From IMG/VR virus record IMGVR_UViG_3300021137_000072, positions 1 through 28,332 of that record: 28,332 bases of DNA; one strand, given 5' to 3'. This DNA is from a virus. Shown piece by piece: positions 9,778 through 22,995 of the stretch. The translations under genes and the position numbers were made by a program. Within the stretch, counting starts at the first letter, position 1; each line of letters begins with the position of its first letter. The notes beneath the pieces were generated by a model. That model did not search any database. It saw only the letters and a program-made list of their open reading frames with translations, and was not told the origin of the DNA.

Positions 9778-11997
9778 TTAAGATATTGATGCATTATTGC
9801 CAGCAGAACCATTATGCCCTGTTAAAATTAATGTATATGAATAAGTTCCATTTGAAGATATATCAAGGGTTTGCGTATCTGTTAAATATCCGTCTGCATA
9901 TCCATTCACCTGTCCAATTCCACTTATATTTAATTGTGAACTTGTCCAATGTCCAGAACTTGCACCACCAAACGTTTTTAATGTTATTGTTACTGGAGCA
10001 TTTTGTACATTGATAACTCCACCGACGTTTGTATTATCTAGATCAACATATGTTGGACCTAAAATAGTATATGGAGCAGCTACAATTAATGATATTGCAT
10101 TTGATTGGAAATATACTCCGTATGATGGAGGTACTGCACTATTGTCTTGCAATCTAATCAATACTCTGTATAAATAAGTTCCTACTGCTGATTCATTTGC
10201 ATCATACGTTGCACCCGTTGCCCCTACAACATTACTCCATGTTGTTCCACTGTCTGCACTTCTTTCCCATTGATATGATGGACCAGCATCGTATCCTACG
10301 GGTAATAATGTTTTAGATGCGTACATCGTAATTGTTGTGTTCGCTGAAGTCGTATATGTATGAACACCAGATCCAACGTTATCAAATTCTGCAACCGCAT
10401 TTACACATGTCATTGCATTTGTTCCCTCTAATGTACCAATTGGATTTCCAATCAATACTCCAGAAGTAACGTATCTGATATATCCATTGATTGCATAATA
10501 TCCTGAAGATACTTTATTTGTTGTACCTGTATAATAAACATATACCGTAGAACCAGTTTCAGAAAATGCAAGTGTATCATCTCTCCATGCCGTTGGGAAC
10601 GTTGAATTATTGTAAGCTTGCCATGCTGCAAATGTTGAATTCGTAGAAGGTATTACAATGTCATATCCAGCAGGTGTACCACTACAAGAATCAGTTGTAT
10701 TATTAGTATTATTTAAAAGCGTTATATTTGTGAATGTTACATTAGATCCTGATCCTCCTTGGTTTCCAGCATCTTCCCAATATAAATTATCAGCTCCTAA
10801 ATAAACAATGTACACCATTTTGTATAGGTTGTATTGCGTTCCACTTCCAGCAGTGTAGATATTATCTGTTGCGGTATTTAGCGTTGTTGTTATTGTATAT
10901 GTAGGAGAAGCGTAAGCTGCAGCCATCGATGTATCTGAACCTCCTGGTATTGCAATGATGCTATTTGTTACCGATGCAGCTCCTTGACCGGATCCCGCAG
11001 GTCTATTTGTGTTATTATCAATTGTATAACTAAATGAACAAAGATCTACCGTTGAAAATGAAGTAGCACCATTCTCCCATGTTTTACCATTTGAAAGATA
11101 CCATCCTGCATAGTTTCCAATACCTCTACCATACGCAACTTCTAATACATCAGAATCTGATGGTAATGTAACGCTTTGCGCAAAATTACTAGTGTTTGTA
11201 AAAACAGATGTTAAGATTGGAATGATTGTACCAATTGGAACTGAACCTCCTAAATCTGAAACTGATTTCCAAGCTACGGTACCATTTGTATCAGTACTAG
11301 CTAGAATTTGTCCAGAAGCAGGTGATCCAACATTAACTTTTAAGTAGTTATTTATTGTTGCTCCTGCATTAAAGATTGCTGGTGTATTTGCAAGTAATTG
11401 ACTTGCATTTATGGTAACGATGTCATTGGTACCATCAGAAAAAATATATTTAGATGCATTCTTTTTAGAAAGAGTTGCTATTGTTGTATTATCAAATCCT
11501 TCTGTTTTTGTAACTACATTTCCGGAACCAAGTTCAATTCTTAAGAAGCTAGTTGCTGCGGTAACTGCATTTACGCTGTCATCAGTCATTTGTATGTTAT
11601 CGATATAAACATTAGACTTTTTATTTACCAACATCGCCGTATCAGAAATCACATCTCCATAAATAGGATCAGTTGAATCAACACCAATCATAATGGTCGG
11701 TGGATTTATCTTTCCGCTTACCTGGATCGGTACTAAAGTATCATTGTTACTTCCAATATTTGAATTCCAATATTCTGAACCGATTGTACCTTGAGCACCT
11801 TGAGGTCCTGTTGAACCTTGAGCTCCCTGTGGACCGGTATCACCAGTCAAACCATCAAAACCCTGAGCACCTTGAGCGCCTTGGGATCCGATTGGTCCAC
11901 CGCCATTCACCAAAATTTGGTCAAAATTATAATTAATCTTGTCCAACTTTTGCTGATCAGAATCGGTATTTAATATTTCTTTAAGATTGTCAATCAT
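9778..11997 (-). CDS. Collagen-like tail fibre protein 1, with collar-like and Ig-like domains
   Basis: This is a 739-aa tail fibre candidate. Residues 15-31 carry the head motif KLDKINYNFDQI shared with the gene next door. Residues 34-73 are 13 Gly-X-Y triplets (GPQGAQGSTGPQGAQG), a collagen-like trimeric stalk. A segment VPIGTIIPILT followed by GWYLSNGKTWENG near residues 250-300 resembles the phage tail-collar domain. Further on come a beta-repeat (SGYYAINGYIRYV) and an Ig-like domain near residues 535-640 with the core SYQWERSADSGTTW. The end is Gly/Ser/Asn-rich. The likely role is host-receptor recognition at the distal tail. It is collinear with the 690-aa paralogue for about 500 residues, then diverges, as expected for fast-evolving receptor tips. 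The start is an ATG without Shine-Dalgarno, 41 nt after the paralogue. Confidence 0.85.
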   Translation of the reverse strand: MIDNLKEILNTDSDQQKLDKINYNFDQILVNGGGPIGSQGAQGAQGFDGLTGDTGPQGAQGSTGPQGAQGTIGSEYWNSNIGSNNDTLVPIQVSGKINPPTIMIGVDSTDPIYGDVISDTAMLVNKKSNVYIDNIQMTDDSVNAVTAATSFLRIELGSGNVVTKTEGFDNTTIATLSKKNASKYIFSDGTNDIVTINASQLLANTPAIFNAGATINNYLKVNVGSPASGQILASTDTNGTVAWKSVSDLGGSVPIGTIIPILTSVFTNTSNFAQSVTLPSDSDVLEVAYGRGIGNYAGWYLSNGKTWENGATSFSTVDLCSFSYTIDNNTNRPAGSGQGAASVTNSIIAIPGGSDTSMAAAYASPTYTITTTLNTATDNIYTAGSGTQYNLYKMVYIVYLGADNLYWEDAGNQGGSGSNVTFTNITLLNNTNNTTDSCSGTPAGYDIVIPSTNSTFAAWQAYNNSTFPTAWRDDTLAFSETGSTVYVYYTGTTNKVSSGYYAINGYIRYVTSGVLIGNPIGTLEGTNAMTCVNAVAEFDNVGSGVHTYTTSANTTITMYASKTLLPVGYDAGPSYQWERSADSGTTWSNVVGATGATYDANESAVGTYLYRVLIRLQDNSAVPPSYGVYFQSNAISLIVAAPYTILGPTYVDLDNTNVGGVINVQNAPVTITLKTFGGASSGHWTSSQLNISGIGQVNGYADGYLTDTQTLDISSNGTYSYTLILTGHNGSAGNNASIS

Positions 11998-12038: not shown

Positions 12039-14111
12039 TTATGTGCAAGTATTTTTGATGCCTAATATTCCATTGCTTATTGAAAACCTATTATACACTG
12101 TTCCTTCAATATCTACTACCCAATCGCTATAGTAATATCCTTGTGTTATTTGCAACATTGCTTCTGTTCCTTCGGCAGTAGAATCACTATTTGAATTTAT
12201 ATATGCAGTTAGTGTTGAATCTGCTGTATTTTCTAAATTACCCAATAGTGTATAAACAAACATTTGAGTTCCAAAACCCAAACATGCATTTGATGCCGTT
12301 GCTGATTGTACACATGTAAATCCTGTGACCGGTGCACCTGGTACACCTCTATTTGCATTCATTATTATGGTTCCATCTATATTTGTTCCATCAAATGAAT
12401 TTAATCCATTATCCCAGAATCTTAATAGTGTACCGACTCTGTACCAACCTGTCGGTGCTGGAATTGTTCCTTGTGCATTTGTAAATAATTTGGTAGCACT
12501 AATTAAATTTGAATTATCACCATATAAAGTAACATTAAATCCAGTTGGAGGATTTCCATTTGAATAATTTAGATCAAAAATAACTGCGCTATGCATCGCA
12601 TTTAATATCTGAGATGTTGTTGGACATGATCCAACGTAATTTGAACCATTAAACGCAGGAGAAACCCAATATCTAACCACTCCGCCGTAACTGTAAAAAC
12701 CAGATGTTGCGAGGGTTACTCCATCAATATTATAAAGATGCAGACCAATAAGATTGTTACTTAAATTCGTCCAATCTTCTACAGAAAAATCTGCTTTAAA
12801 TGTATTTGTTCCAGCAGCGCATGCAGATGCTTGAGAACTTGTATCATAACCTAAATCAATATTATTTAATGTAGGAGGAACATAACTTCCAGTTTCCCAT
12901 GTAAATCCAGTTTGTCCTAAATAACATATATAGATCAATTTTGTATCTCCATATTCAGTTCCAGTATTCGGAAAATCTATCACTCCTGGTTCTCCAGTGC
13001 TTGCAAAATCTACAATTGTCGAAGTGATTGTATATCCACTGGAATACGGCATTGTTAGCGTAACTTCTGCGCCTGCAAGCATTGAAAGATCTGCAGGTCC
13101 AAATGTTTGTTCTGTCTGTCCTCCGTCATTTGATGCAATGTTATATTTAAATGCATTTATGTTTGGAAGAGTATAATTAAGAGTTCCAATAGTCCAGGTT
13201 TGTCCATTACATGCATACCATCCTTCGAAAAGGGTGTTTGCCATACCGGCTCCGGTTCTATTTTGTAGAATTGGAGTTCCTGTTTGTTGTATTGTCTCGT
13301 TTAAATAAAAATTAGTTGAATTAAAATACGAAGGATCGATTCCAATAATTGATCCGATTGGAAACAACGCGATTAAATCTCTTAATCTTGCCCAACTTAC
13401 GCTCCCACTACTATCTGAAGATCTTACAACATAGTTTGCAACTGGACTCGCTACATTAAATTGAGCACCTATGTGCATCTCTGATCCTGAATTTAAAATT
13501 GAATCAACTGAACTTGTTAATCCACCATCAATTTCAATAAAACCAGAATAATTATGTTGCGATGCAGCATCCACCAAAATTCCAGATGCATTTTCATCAA
13601 AGCTCTCTTCTAAAACTATTTGTGATCCAACTGAATCATAATAAAAATTATAATGAGATCTATTATCAGAATCTGAAGTTTTTAAAGAAAGGTTATATGT
13701 GTTCTTATCAGAAGTATGTAAAGTTTTTAATCTGGTAGTCGGATTGTTATAATCTGCTGATGAGCTTGACACTCCAATTTCAATCGTGGTTGGATTTAAC
13801 TTTCCAAATTGATTTGTCTTTAGGGTATCATTATCGCTTGTTATAAGTGTATTCTTTAACCAAACCGATTGTCCTTCATCTCCTTGTGGTCCAGCAAATC
13901 CATCATCTCCAGGGTCACCTTGCGCTCCGGTTGTTCCTTTGGATCCATCATCTCCAGGGTCACCTTGCGCTCCTTGTGGACCATTTGGTCCTCCATGATT
14001 CAATTCAATCTGCTGGAAGTTAGCATTTATTTTTTCAACCTTTTCGGGTGATAAAAATACGCCAGATCCATCGGCATCTGAATTGTATATTTCTGTAATT
14101 ATTATTGACAT
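12039..14111 (-). CDS. Collagen-like tail fibre protein 2, paralogue with tandem beta repeats
   Basis: This is a 690-aa tail fibre candidate, paralogous to the 739-aa protein downstream. The head motif EKVEKINANFQQI lies at residues 23-35, and Gly-X-Y triplets run from residue 41 to 80, acidic in character (GDPGDDG repeated). A tail-collar-like part follows: FPIGSIIGI, then GWYACNGQTWTIG and a TLPNINAF stretch. The C-terminal third looks like about three degenerate repeats of roughly 70-85 residues built around LYN..GVTLATSGFYSYGG (dots are unshown residues), GWYRVGTLLRFW and QGYYYSDWVVD. Cysteines near the module boundaries may help define them. The protein likely binds a surface receptor. 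Its ATG lies one base beyond the stop of the 1577-aa gene, so the two are probably co-translated. Confidence 0.85.
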   Translation of the reverse strand: MSIIITEIYNSDADGSGVFLSPEKVEKINANFQQIELNHGGPNGPQGAQGDPGDDGSKGTTGAQGDPGDDGFAGPQGDEGQSVWLKNTLITSDNDTLKTNQFGKLNPTTIEIGVSSSSADYNNPTTRLKTLHTSDKNTYNLSLKTSDSDNRSHYNFYYDSVGSQIVLEESFDENASGILVDAASQHNYSGFIEIDGGLTSSVDSILNSGSEMHIGAQFNVASPVANYVVRSSDSSGSVSWARLRDLIALFPIGSIIGIDPSYFNSTNFYLNETIQQTGTPILQNRTGAGMANTLFEGWYACNGQTWTIGTLNYTLPNINAFKYNIASNDGGQTEQTFGPADLSMLAGAEVTLTMPYSSGYTITSTIVDFASTGEPGVIDFPNTGTEYGDTKLIYICYLGQTGFTWETGSYVPPTLNNIDLGYDTSSQASACAAGTNTFKADFSVEDWTNLSNNLIGLHLYNIDGVTLATSGFYSYGGVVRYWVSPAFNGSNYVGSCPTTSQILNAMHSAVIFDLNYSNGNPPTGFNVTLYGDNSNLISATKLFTNAQGTIPAPTGWYRVGTLLRFWDNGLNSFDGTNIDGTIIMNANRGVPGAPVTGFTCVQSATASNACLGFGTQMFVYTLLGNLENTADSTLTAYINSNSDSTAEGTEAMLQITQGYYYSDWVVDIEGTVYNRFSISNGILGIKNTCT
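13898..13973 (-). repeat. Direct repeat of 31 bp inside the collagen-like stalk
   Basis: The same 31 bases occur at 13898-13928 and 13943-13973, with a period of 45 bp, which is five Gly-X-Y triplets. Each copy encodes GAQGDPGDDG. Exact nucleotide identity, rather than only protein similarity, suggests a recent duplication or gene conversion. Such repeats can change stalk length by slippage or recombination. Confidence 0.9.
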
Positions 14112-18903: not shown

Positions 18904-21900
18904 TTATCTCAGTACTGACATTTCACCTGGTGTTGAAAAGTCATTAGAATCAGCAAACTGACCGGTATTCTTATTGTGGGAAACTAATCCTTCAACAACA
19001 TACGTATGTGCATTTCCAATTTCAAGTTTAACTATTTCTGCGTTACCAACCGCCTGTTTGTATGTGATTGTAACAATTCCATTTTCTGATTGGATCTTAT
19101 CTCCAACGTGTAGATCTGAGATCGAAACGTATTCTCCAGCTTCAGTTAAGAATTTATGTGAATTAGAAACTGTAACATTGCTTCCACCTGCGCTAACTAA
19201 TACGATTGGTTGAATTCCTCTCGATGTATTAATCAATGGATATGTTCCCCATACTCCTGTTAATTCGTGTTTAGTGTAAACTAGATCACCAATCTTTAAG
19301 TCTCCTGCTGGTACTAAGGTATTAGATCCAGTTAAGATTCTCATGTTTGGTGTAGGACAACCTCCTCCGCCTGAAGAAGGTGCATTGTAGTTATTTAACA
19401 TTGCACTCGTTACGTTTGTAGAAGAAGAACCCTCTTGTTTGTATTTCGCGTAAACTTCGACGTCAAACTGGAATGAATTTCCAGCAGCATCTAAAATATC
19501 GATACCTATCTTTTTAGAATAAGTGATGTTTGTTAAAGTATTGCTATAGATACCACCAATTCTACCAGTGTTATTTGCAGCAGTTGCAGTTGTTGAAACT
19601 GTACTGTCAGCTATACCATAGTAATCAGTCATTCTATATTGGAAGATCAAATCTACTGAAACCGCATTTGTGGCTCCAGATGCTATTGTTTTTACACCAA
19701 ATTTATTATCTGCATCTACGATAAGACTTGTCTTTTGTAGAGGTGCAACATATAAATAGGCTCCACATGATTGACCACCTAATAGATATTGATCATTTGC
19801 ATCGAATGCCATTTTCAAAGTTCTATGAACTGTGTTATTCGCATCATTTACCCATGTTGTATATTTGTATGGATTTTGGAATCCGCCATCTGCCATGTTT
19901 GCTCTTCTTGGTGCATTTTTAGACATTGCAACCATACCAGCACCTTGGATTTGCAATGGAGTGATCGCTCCATTTGACAAGATTGGATGGTCTTTATGAA
20001 TGAAGATACCATTGTCATATGCAGAACTTGATATTGGATTTGTAGCTCCTGCAAGATCAATTATCGTTATTGCTGGTGTAGTACTATTAAATGAACCTGT
20101 CCAAATAAATGCATTTGCTAATACAGTTGGATCAGTAGGTGCATCAAATGGTGTACTTGAAGCCGCAGAATAATTTCTTTCTTTGCTAGTTGGATCGATT
20201 GTAACACCAGTAAAGATGTTTGAAAGACCATACTCATAATCATCAATACCAGTTGTTATTGATAAATCTGGCGCAGTTAAAGAATAAAGATCAGTATCAT
20301 TCGCTAGATTTCTGAATCTAGAGTTAACGAACTGTCCTCTTAATTGTCCTGACTGTAATGGTATTTGATTGAAGAAGATATTTGCTGAAATATCTGCTGC
20401 TGCCAAATTTTGATATAATAAAGGTACTAAATCATAGTTACCTTCAGTTGTATAATATGTGTTTGTTGCAACCGCAGAATCAGGTGTTGTAGTTCCATTT
20501 GCAGAAACTCCTAACGTTGCAGATTTACCTGAGTTATAAATAGGTTGAGTTCTATCACCTAGAATTCTTGCAACTAATTCTAAATTGGTTGCTTTAGTGT
20601 TTGCTAACTTTAATTTAAAACTCTTTGTAACAATTGCACCTTTTCTATTTGTTTGACTTGTAATCTCATCAACATAGTAACCTGCAAATAACTGAACTGA
20701 CGTATTATTAGATACTACAGTTTGAGTTCCATTTTGATCTTCAAGGTATACTGAAAGTTCTCCAAGAGTACCAGCGATTTGAGCAGTTAGTGTTTGAATT
20801 TGATTTTGTAATTCAATCAACTTATCAAATACTGAAACTGGATTTTGATTTGCATCTAAGAATCCTGAAGCTATTGAGGTACCGATGTGCGCAAAATATT
20901 TAGAGTTTGCAGTAAATGAATCACCAATGTGTGTATAAACTCCACCAGTTGTTAGATCCTGATCAACTTGAACCTTTACCAAATCGGTTTGGTTTTGATT
21001 GATAGCATCTAATAATTTATCTCCAGTGAATTGTCCTTCTGGGAAAACGATTTGAACGATCGAAGAGAATTCTGATTCTGCTGGATTCGATGGGAAACCT
21101 GCCTCAGATCTTGAAGCGATCATGATTTCAACAGCCTCTCCAGATTCAATTGGAATATCTAATGAATTAAAGTTTACGGTTTGAGCGTCTTCTTCATTCT
21201 CATTTTGCCATTTGTACTTTCCAGTAGTTGGATCCAAAGCTCTTTGTCTAACAGGTCCTAAAATTTCATTCCAGTTAGAGAATGCCGCAGTTTTAACGGT
21301 ATTAGTTGTACTATCATTAAAAGGGATCTGATCAACTTGACTGGTTTTACCATTTACTGAAAGATATCGATATCTTATTTTAAATTGTACAACCTCTTGA
21401 GGTACGGTGTTTGCTACATTTTTTGGAAGTGGCACTGACCAGAAACCTCTTACGCTAAATTTAGGAGCTACATTCGTTAAATTGTTTGAAGCTGCTATAG
21501 TTTGAATTTGCGTAACTATTGATGCATATAAATTTGATTCAGTTGCTCTTTGAGAAACTAAAGCATTGTATTCATTCGTGTCTCTATCTTTATCAACTGA
21601 AGACGTATACTTTTGTGTATTGATTTGCGTTTTCTTTTGAGCAATAGAAGTATCTAACTGAGCCAATGACTGCTCTGCCGCAGCTTTATCTGACTGCAAT
21701 TGAGTAATCTTGATAGTCGAATCGTTATCTGTTAAGTGATTGTTTATTTGAACCACTTTAAAGTTATTTACATCCAGAACCGGCGCATCTGGAGGAACTG
21801 CCATTGCAGCAGGTGGAATAAAGTCTACTTGTAAACTTTTAATGAATTGACCAAAATCTGCAACCTCTGATTTATAATAATCAGCAAGTGTTACAACGCT

Positions 21901-22995
21901 TCCATCAGCCATGGTTATTTGCAAATCATTTGAATAGAATGCAACACCCGGTGAAAAATTAGCCGCTTCGATTTTAGAAACTGGATCAATTGCTTTAACA
22001 AATACAACCTGTCTTTCATCGAAATTGATATTTAATTTAATATCAGTTGCAATTGAATTATCTTTGTAGATTGTTAATTGTGATGCTCCAATTTTAATAG
22101 GTTCAGAACCTTCAACCAATAATAAAGAAACTTGAGAGGTGCTTGAATTGATCGATTGTACTGTGTATCTTGTTGCCAAGTTTCCAGAATTAACAACCAA
22201 TGAATCTCCAACCTTTAAGGTTTCAGTATCCTGAAGTGTTTTAGATGAATCTGAGTAAGTTAATTTATTTAATGTGAATAACCTAACAGTGTTCGTTTGA
22301 CTAACACCGTTAACAATCTGTGTAACTTGAACGTTGTCTACGCTTATAACATCTAGATCTCCATAATACTGAACCATCTTAGCTGGCATATCAACAGTAT
22401 TCGAATCCAATGTATATTGGTATGAATTCTGAGATAATTGAGTTAAGAATGTTTTGTAATCGATGCTATTCGATCCTTTGTAATTATTATCGAATGCAGC
22501 AGAACTTGTTTGGTCTGCACTGTTAAAGATATATCTTTCAACATAAATTTTTTCAGTGTTAACTGCAATTTGATTGCTAACGTCCATTGTGATGGTTAAC
22601 AATGGATTTAAAAAGTTCTGAAAGAATTGATTGTTCTTAGTTTCAAATGCAGTTGGAGTGTATAGACTGGTAATAGTTGGAGCTGGTCCATCTAATTTAC
22701 TGGTCATAACTCTTCTATAAGTACCATCTGACAATTGAATATTCGCTGTTGAATTTCCAATTGCGCTAAGGTTGTTAACGTTATTGCTTAATCTTTCAAT
22801 CTCTCTTTTCAAGAAACCAAATGATGGAACTTGAACTGTTGTAACATTGGTAGTCGATGGATCATACAAGTTAATAACTACACTATCCTTATCGGTAGTA
22901 ATAGCAGTATTTGTTTGTTGGTATGTTGCCAATGCGTTATTATACAATTCTACGAATTGTTCTAATAGTTGCGAGATTGAATTGTTTGCGCTCAT
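18904..22995 (-). CDS. Large virion structural protein with C-terminal self-processing Hint domain
   Basis: This 1363-aa structural protein is built as follows: an N-terminal helical part (MSANNSISQLLEQFVELYNN), a mixed region, a coiled coil near residues 415-500 (SDKAAAEQSLAQLDTSIAQK), a fibronectin-III-like domain near 510-655 (FKIRYRYLSVNG, later VEIMIASRSEAG), a second short coiled coil near 718-750, and a long beta-rich part. After a Ser/Gly linker comes a Hint domain at residues 1213-1341 and then a 22-residue tail. The body probably belongs to the baseplate or a fibre connector. The Hint domain suggests cleavage or ligation at its ends during assembly (inferred). The ATG at 22995 follows the previous stop by one base, so translation is probably coupled. 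No Shine-Dalgarno motif is seen. The exact virion location is unknown. Confidence 0.88.
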   Translation of the reverse strand: MSANNSISQLLEQFVELYNNALATYQQTNTAITTDKDSVVINLYDPSTTNVTTVQVPSFGFLKREIERLSNNVNNLSAIGNSTANIQLSDGTYRRVMTSKLDGPAPTITSLYTPTAFETKNNQFFQNFLNPLLTITMDVSNQIAVNTEKIYVERYIFNSADQTSSAAFDNNYKGSNSIDYKTFLTQLSQNSYQYTLDSNTVDMPAKMVQYYGDLDVISVDNVQVTQIVNGVSQTNTVRLFTLNKLTYSDSSKTLQDTETLKVGDSLVVNSGNLATRYTVQSINSSTSQVSLLLVEGSEPIKIGASQLTIYKDNSIATDIKLNINFDERQVVFVKAIDPVSKIEAANFSPGVAFYSNDLQITMADGSVVTLADYYKSEVADFGQFIKSLQVDFIPPAAMAVPPDAPVLDVNNFKVVQINNHLTDNDSTIKITQLQSDKAAAEQSLAQLDTSIAQKKTQINTQKYTSSVDKDRDTNEYNALVSQRATESNLYASIVTQIQTIAASNNLTNVAPKFSVRGFWSVPLPKNVANTVPQEVVQFKIRYRYLSVNGKTSQVDQIPFNDSTTNTVKTAAFSNWNEILGPVRQRALDPTTGKYKWQNENEEDAQTVNFNSLDIPIESGEAVEIMIASRSEAGFPSNPAESEFSSIVQIVFPEGQFTGDKLLDAINQNQTDLVKVQVDQDLTTGGVYTHIGDSFTANSKYFAHIGTSIASGFLDANQNPVSVFDKLIELQNQIQTLTAQIAGTLGELSVYLEDQNGTQTVVSNNTSVQLFAGYYVDEITSQTNRKGAIVTKSFKLKLANTKATNLELVARILGDRTQPIYNSGKSATLGVSANGTTTPDSAVATNTYYTTEGNYDLVPLLYQNLAAADISANIFFNQIPLQSGQLRGQFVNSRFRNLANDTDLYSLTAPDLSITTGIDDYEYGLSNIFTGVTIDPTSKERNYSAASSTPFDAPTDPTVLANAFIWTGSFNSTTPAITIIDLAGATNPISSSAYDNGIFIHKDHPILSNGAITPLQIQGAGMVAMSKNAPRRANMADGGFQNPYKYTTWVNDANNTVHRTLKMAFDANDQYLLGGQSCGAYLYVAPLQKTSLIVDADNKFGVKTIASGATNAVSVDLIFQYRMTDYYGIADSTVSTTATAANNTGRIGGIYSNTLTNITYSKKIGIDILDAAGNSFQFDVEVYAKYKQEGSSSTNVTSAMLNNYNAPSSGGGGCPTPNMRILTGSNTLVPAGDLKIGDLVYTKHELTGVWGTYPLINTSRGIQPIVLVSAGGSNVTVSNSHKFLTEAGEYVSISDLHVGDKIQSENGIVTITYKQAVGNAEIVKLEIGNAHTYVVEGLVSHNKNTGQFADSNDFSTPGEMSVLR
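18973..19359 (-). other. Hint (intein-like, BIL-type) protein domain
   Basis: This stretch encodes residues 1213-1341 (129 aa) of the 1363-aa protein. It starts after four glycines with Cys1213 (CPTPNMRILTG), followed by the block-A pattern VPAGDLKIGDLVYT. Block B shows NVTVSNSHKF with His1280, then DLHVGDKI. Block F reads EIVKLEIGNAHTYVV. The end is VSHN (His1340-Asn1341). These are the residues that carry out N-S acyl shift and Asn cyclisation in inteins. The residue after Asn is Lys, not Cys/Ser/Thr, so standard splicing is not expected. This matches bacterial intein-like (BIL) domains, which cleave or do non-canonical ligation. No homing endonuclease is present. Confidence 0.88.

Follow-up and report, generated by a model that had tools for sequence, protein, structure and literature searches.

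C-terminal Hint domain of a phage tail-cluster protein is one of a widespread class with a near-universal lysine in the short tail after His-Asn

The question raised by this locus was what a Hint domain might do at the very end of a presumed phage structural protein and whether the few residues behind it take part. The window (the whole 28,332-nt stretch analysed, IMG/VR record IMGVR_UViG_3300021137_000072) contained a minus-strand ORF in which a long body was followed by a glycine linker, the Hint domain, and a short tail, as listed below:

18904..22995, minus strand: ORF of 1363 aa, tail/baseplate-cluster protein with C-terminal Hint (ORF and translation)
19372..22995, minus strand: body, residues 1–1208, homologous to Hint-less Bacteroidota jumbo-phage proteins up to about residue 1190
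19360..19371, minus strand: Gly1209–Gly1212, tetraglycine linker before the predicted scissile bond (translation)
18973..19359, minus strand: Hint domain, residues 1213–1341, A-type BIL-like (PT-HINT, alignment, model, Foldseek, and profile versus PDB)
19357..19359, minus strand: Cys1213, predicted thioester nucleophile (invariant in 28/28 aligned Hints)
19156..19158, minus strand: His1280, block B histidine within SNSH (invariant in 28/28)
18973..18978, minus strand: His1340–Asn1341, block G, predicted Asn cyclisation site (invariant in 28/28)
18970..18972, minus strand: Lys1342, sole lysine of the tail and proposed amine acceptor (tail-lysine statistics)
18907..18972, minus strand: C-terminal tail, 22 residues, 1342–1363 (translation; pLDDT <50)

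The Hint ORF was assigned to a tail/baseplate cluster because of matches in neighbouring genes, namely a tail tube match (phrog_45, E 1e-11) and a Tail_P2_I match (E 0.009, below its Pfam cut-off); the ORF body itself matched phrog_29329 (function unknown; best stretch residues 1–821, E 1.2e-136), and replication genes (helicase, ssDNA-binding protein, and primase) were also present among the neighbours. The Hint protein would thus presumably be located in the virion; virion mass spectrometry of relatives of the ORF protein was not found in the literature searched, including the accessible parts of PMC7412058 and PMC10537231. Two consecutive collagen-repeat proteins were encoded near the Hint protein, likewise on the minus strand (9778–11997 and 12039–14111), and their Collagen Pfam matches (E 4.9e-5 and 1.6e-5, respectively) were both below cut-off.

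The earlier note, made from the letters and translations of the window, had placed a Hint domain at the C-terminus of a phage structural protein, and this placement was borne out for a tail/baseplate-cluster protein by profile match, alignment, and fold, the position 18973–19359 being exact; the four glycines, Cys1213, His1280, His-Asn1341, Lys1342, and the 22-residue tail were each located by script as claimed. Comparison of residues 1213–1341 with Hint/BIL profiles, also proposed there, gave (i) PT-HINT (PF07591) above cut-off on residues 1231–1340 (28.6 bits versus a cut-off of 27.7, E 1.9e-6, Pfam) and (ii) matches to the Clostridium BIL and to BIL2; NCBIfam gave no match near cut-off for the window Hint. 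The PT-HINT match began downstream of Cys1213, and this residue was placed by alignment with 27 other Hints. Cys1213, His1280, His1340, and Asn1341 were invariant columns in the resulting 28-row alignment, the other 27 rows of which had been collected via Cys or His-Asn motifs and chosen for ending in His-Asn. The window Hint shared 17–29% identity with these 27 rows, and it was divergent in block A (CPTPNMRI versus CFxxGTxI of the aligned set) and in block B (SNSH versus TxxH, with Ser for Thr).

An AlphaFold2 model of 155 residues, built from the alignment of the window Hint and the 27 others, displayed the Hint fold with a mean pLDDT of 84.8, its residues 138–155 (the tail) being below 50; the objection that the earlier note had reserved for a structure prediction without such a fold therefore did not arise. 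Foldseek against the PDB gave 64 matches at E ≤ 0.001, the 50 listed being inteins, BILs, or Hedgehog domains without exception. The top match was BIL2 from the BUBL1 locus of Tetrahymena (E 2.3e-10, TM-score 0.78), with the DnaB intein, the gp41-1 intein, and the Clostridium BIL (2.5e-8) behind it. Against PDB sequences, the alignment profile likewise ranked BIL2 highest (6.4e-21), ahead of the Clostridium BIL (6.5e-17). That the Hint is degenerate or inactive, a passenger only, might be suspected from the divergent blocks A and B, but the catalytic positions were retained and the model was confident; moreover, three IMG/VR contigs carried a nearly unchanged copy of the gene, and both contigs covering the whole Hint retained it with 0 and 1 aa changes within (the third stopped at residue 1219), and we consider inactivity very improbable. 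The IMG/VR search with the window Hint alone gave near-identical copies only.

Comparison with the known Hint systems was centred on the C-terminal motif and the residue behind it. A-type BIL (e.g., that of Clostridium thermocellum, PDB 2LWY) shared with the window Hint the fold, Cys1 plus the block B His, His-Asn, and the lack of +1 Cys/Ser/Thr. The remaining systems differed: (i) B-type BIL has no intein-like C-terminal motif, while the window Hint has His-Asn; (ii) inteins have a +1 Cys/Ser/Thr nucleophile, while the +1 residue of the window Hint is Lys1342; and (iii) PT-HINT pretoxins (PF07591), matched in sequence just above cut-off, have a toxin domain after the Hint and Hedgehog has the Hog sterol-recognition region there, while only 22 residues follow in the window. 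Phage inteins of terminases and helicases had the fold in common with the window Hint, and its named-phage matches were Corynebacterium phage terminases (25% identity) plus one Vibrio phage; the intein-like scan matches, unlike the window Hint, mostly had +1 Cys and lay in terminase- or helicase-looking ORFs. As far as sequence tells, the window Hint belongs to the A-type BIL kind and is predicted to be self-processing. The residues retained support both an intact thioester side (Gly-Cys and His1280) and an intact Asn-cyclisation side (His-Asn), and the Lys following Asn1341 is probably the most informative residue.

The Hint was an add-on to its protein, because Bacteroidota jumbo-phage relatives shared the body to about residue 1190 without it. 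Whole-protein tblastn gave 31 phage records, every one with <60% identity, including Chryseobacterium phages MA9V-1 and MA9V-2, Flavobacterium phage MaF61, Tenacibaculum phages PTm1, PTm5, and pT24, Sphingomonas phage PAU, Lak phages, and uncultured huge phages; none of these matches extended beyond query residue 1198. There was no Hint at the C-termini of the seven relatives inspected (L007–L013), and tblastn with the Hint alone gave 9 Corynebacterium and 1 Vibrio phage records and none of the phages of the Hint-less relatives. The residues after the last shared block numbered 26–49 in the five relatives where this block could be placed; in the window, 27 residues before Cys1213 plus 22 after Asn1341 made 49, and the tail of the nearest relative LR756500 was also 49, an agreement that fits, and does not prove, insertion of the Hint into a pre-existing tail. 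As for the insertion into a conserved protein that characterizes inteins, homologues without the Hint existed, but the Hint sat in a variable C-terminal tail.

The window Hint is no peculiarity of its phage: Hints of its class are widespread. The first viral scan (IMG/VR), with a pattern of four glycines, Cys, and the block A motif, gave at least 120 stretches with two arrangements: (i) C-terminal Hints, as in the window, and (ii) Hints inside glycine-rich stretches of ORFs, in which GGGGKGGGG or similar often came after His-Asn among the matches listed. We take the ORFs with such internal glycine-flanked Hints to resemble lambda gpI/gpJ tail tip proteins. Hints glycine-rich on both sides in tail-tip-like ORFs were seen in L017, L024, L026, L035, L036, L040, and L050 and likewise in L064, L066, L099, L106, L115, and L126, and the glycine stretch looked duplicated around the Hint in L035 and L040. 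Among the closed short ORFs of the first scan, 23/71 were without His-Asn near the end: 18 were Hints of one viral family ending in motifs such as NVNILNA, and 5 were other or chance matches. This family was composed of L023, L037, L042, and 15 similar loci, which had the glycine linker, Cys, and Hint-like blocks but NVNILNA-like ends instead of His-Asn. Two collagen-like, lysine-rich viral fibre-like ORFs, L192 and L199, were capped by a Hint with the two-residue tails KF and LK.

Deposited phage records were matched as well, and 14 regions were opened. Eight of them contained nine C-terminal Hint tails, 9/9 with lysine and five belonging to one family: Erwinia phages Y3, Alexandra, and Yoloswag, Dickeya phage AD1, Yersinia phage fHe-Yen9-02, NCTB (three ORFs in two regions), and LR756508. 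In four of the remaining six regions the Hint was followed by a long C-flank, with Ser, Leu, Ser, and Ala at +1. Serratia ORF L333 had no Hint at the C-terminus, and the Hint ORF of one Lak phage, read with table 11, closed on HN-SGTNF, with no Lys; stop-codon recoding is possible in Lak phages. Y3, Alexandra, Yoloswag, AD1, fHe-Yen9-02, and NCTB each had the C-terminal Hint, His-Asn, and lysine tail beside tail fibre genes, and the Hint ORFs of these six phages were annotated 'virion structural protein' or 'tail protein', with 'contains intein domain' in NCTB and Y3. The window body had no match in any of the six (tblastn), and the Hints of Y3, AD1, Alexandra, Yoloswag, and fHe-Yen9-02 were, unlike that of the window, without a glycine run.

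Further viral scans were applied to test the lysine excess, using a query without glycines and without the tail, together with a prokaryote-genome scan whose query alignment ended at His-Asn; most members of this alignment themselves had +1 Lys, and near relatives may therefore share +1 Lys by descent. The viral and prokaryote counts are of samples, because the scans returned listed matches or the best 80. L021 (His-Asn outside block G), ORFs without a stop inside the locus, and duplicates with the same last 60 residues were left out, and +1 Cys tails were counted apart; 13 C-terminal Hints were picked by eye from the YF-pattern matches, and the full set was used in the tail count. The viral tail set thus consisted of distinct C-terminal Hints whose +1 residue was other than Cys and whose closed tail did not exceed 30 aa (n = 86 among the matches listed); 342 other ORFs on the first-scan loci supplied the length-matched C-termini for the expectation.

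Among the matches listed, lysine was present in 47/47 C-terminal Hint tails of the first scan versus 15.7 expected and in 85/86 viral tails altogether versus 29.5 expected. Shared descent inflates these counts; for representatives (<50% ungapped identity over 60 residues), the value was 43/44 versus 14.5 expected, with a log10 probability of -25.2. Exactly one lysine was found in 70/86 viral tails, as in the window tail, whose only lysine is at +1; Lys stood at +1 in 26/86, and 59 of the 60 tails with another +1 residue had lysine elsewhere (19.8 expected). The lysine position ranged from +1 to +19 and the tail length from 1 to 30 among the matches listed, and therefore no fixed geometry was apparent. 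Very short tails were present (HN-K, HN-KK, HN-LK, HN-KF, and HN-SKD), while a zero-length tail was found in none of the viral or prokaryote Hints listed. Only Lys, of the 20 amino acids, was far above expectation in the viral tails listed, the next being Gln (30 versus 21.3 expected); arginine was not enriched (22/86 versus 27.8 expected). In prokaryote genomes, the tails listed contained lysine in 48/52 (22.7 expected; 33 at +1) and arginine in 12/52 (15.8 expected), and closed Hints with >30 residues after them and +1 not Cys had +1 Lys in 20/20 of the matches listed. For viral Hints in longer proteins with +1 not Cys, +1 Lys was found in 16/41 (at least 2 of the 41 probably being chance matches) and, in a separate count, in 10/13 of the matches listed.

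The controls gave no comparable excess. In the proteins of the first 60 tails, lysine occurred in 3/60 length-matched stretches upstream of the linker versus 60/60 tails, and random body stretches of these proteins contained it in 18%; inteins with Cys at +1, taken as a control under the same limit on tail length, had lysine in 19/26 versus 17.1 expected among the matches listed. Three simpler sources of the lysine were considered: (i) a composition artefact or a gene-end ribosome-binding-site effect was rejected against length-matched C-termini of other ORFs on the first-scan and genome loci; (ii) a simple need of Asn cyclisation for Lys at +1 was dismissed as the full explanation, because nearly all the tails without +1 Lys hold Lys further on; and (iii) positive charge in general became a weaker candidate with the absent Arg enrichment, while it keeps some standing because several lysine-less tails begin with Arg, and Arg at +1 would make more sense for charge than for nucleophilic attack. 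The tails without lysine were L285 (HN-RCDVDAGGDCQ) as the viral exception and 4/52 prokaryote tails (RFNN, RYIN, RRNFSDGG, and EFSQNE). L185, with a 40-residue tail without Lys, is probably a chance match and lay beyond the 30-residue limit; L196, included in the 86, had +1 Ser, looked like a terminase intein, and held Lys.

A known system with lysine chemistry was also the one most like the window Hint by profile and fold: BIL2 (Tetrahymena thermophila BUBL1 polyubiquitin-like locus; PDB 6TMM and 6Y75), which according to its structure providers splices with an isopeptide to the lysine epsilon amine (PMC8616854, partial text). BIL2 differs from the window Hint in being eukaryotic, in lying between two ubiquitin-like domains, in its 19% identity (Foldseek alignment), and in its reported zinc activation (same partial text), while the window Hint is C-terminal with its 22-residue tail. 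A lysine for a BIL2-type transfer to the epsilon amine is present in the window tail, and by analogy such a transfer might take place.

We lean, by a little, towards an A-type BIL Hint that hands the acyl group of Gly1212 from its thioester to the amine of a lysine and comes free when Asn1341 cyclises. We infer every chemical step, together with the virion location and the purpose, as follows: (i) Cys1213 and His1280 would turn the Gly1212–Cys1213 bond into a thioester, as the conserved residues and the predicted fold suggest; (ii) a lysine amine would take the Gly1212 acyl group to give a Gly-Lys isopeptide, the acceptor most likely being the side chain of Lys1342 of the own tail or the same residue of a neighbouring copy, in view of the near-universal tail lysine and the reported BIL2 chemistry; and (iii) Asn1341 would cyclise and free the 129-residue Hint, as its His-Asn suggests. 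The net outcome would be removal of the Hint, with the C-terminal glycine of the body capped by or joined to a lysine peptide with no ATP or enzymes, overall a lysine-using relative of protein splicing. The side chain is favoured as acceptor because lysine appears required yet may stand anywhere from +1 to +19 and is not generally replaced by Arg. The earlier idea that a reactive thioester couples the protein covalently to a partner gained strength, because the tail lysine is near-universal in relatives and isopeptide chemistry has been reported for BIL2. Several points count against a lysine acceptor: an isopeptide to a free tail of 1–3 residues offers the phage no obvious benefit, the lysine position varies too much for a fixed geometry, viral Hints with longer C-flanks often have another +1 residue, a few tails hold no lysine, and the window Hint departs from the aligned rows in block A and in the Ser of block B. 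Candidate gains would be disposal of a folding aid (the self-detaching S74 domain in tail fibres offers a comparison; PMC7824862, partial text), capping of fibre ends, or cross-linking of subunits.

In an ordinary A-type BIL, Asn1341 would cyclise first, and either the freed +1 alpha amine would attack the thioester or both ends would be hydrolysed and the Hint shed, the Lys side chain not being the acceptor. Type A BILs are described as splicing via the freed alpha amine with cleavage dominating (PMC4031507), and cleaved products of BILs as predominating (PMC7664689), both in the parts of these sources available; the Lys at +1 in the window would suit this course, and so would the common Gly at -1, a residue favourable to aminolysis and found in 28/47 viral Hints listed from searches without glycines in the query. 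It leaves unaccounted for the lysine in 59/60 tails lacking +1 Lys and the preference for Lys over Arg, and we hold it to be doubtful, on the unlikely side. The absence of +1 Cys/Ser/Thr, which the earlier note had read as ruling out normal splicing, was confirmed, while its consequence was only partly upheld: it does not alone preclude splicing according to PMC4031507, while type A BILs cannot ligate according to PMC7765530 (partial texts).

The Gly1212 thioester might also be passed to an external nucleophile, i.e., an amine of a virion subunit or of the host surface, in the manner of Hedgehog or of the BIL2 platform, the tail only shaping the site. BIL2 has been reported to conjugate ubl4 to different substrates (PMC8616854, partial text), and some related C-terminal Hints adjoin tail fibre genes or end fibre-like ORFs with collagen-like or PT-rich repeats; however, the lysine of the cis tail would compete, His-Asn and the tail would not be needed, and 22 aa make no long extension beyond the Hint, so that we judge this course improbable. 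Transfer to the tail lysine stays the preferred reading.

The near-universal tail lysine suggests that such domains may join a protein end to lysine without a helper enzyme. Tentatively, and as a proposition falling somewhat short of probable, a widespread phage and prokaryote Hint class could use the short-tail lysine as its splicing nucleophile and form isopeptides with neither enzyme nor ATP, thereby capping or cross-linking virion and surface proteins at their ends. This would be likened to ubiquitin transfer within one protein, with the signature 'His-Asn, then short tail with one lysine', and the window protein, from a contractile-tail Bacteroidota phage, would be an instance of it. With lysine as the acceptor, splicing that forms an isopeptide would be no ciliate oddity but widespread in viruses and prokaryotes and recognizable by a sequence signature, it would point to the way in which many fibre- and tail-cluster proteins end, and it would offer compact ATP-free ligases joining a C-terminus to lysine; should the acceptor be something else, a residue held in nearly every sampled viral tail while length and other residues vary would still demand explanation. 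Described BILs lie in variable bacterial proteins (PMC7765530, partial text), and a C-flank lysine requirement was not mentioned for A-type BILs in the accessible parts of the literature searched. Lysine tails after Hints, or a Hint in a virion protein, were undescribed among the literature matches listed, as far as their accessible text goes (including PMC3556154, PMC5259590, PMC5526547, PMC7468147, PMC9200820, and PMC13282480), a scope outside of which the original BIL/BIL2 papers lie.

Two further arrangements were observed in the scans. Tandem Hints within a single viral ORF were present in L282, L290, L301, L302, L308, L312, L423, L424, L427, L428, and L430, with the short linkers HN-K-Cys, HN-RA-Cys, HN-YKA-Cys, and HN-KGGGSGG-Cys, reminiscent of the BUBL arrangement. 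Five cyanobacterial ORFs (L364, L366, L377, L405, and L416; Nostoc, Calothrix, and Adonisia) of about 410–440 aa harbored an early Hint followed by HN-KGGGGG, plus a hydrophobic-looking segment near the end.
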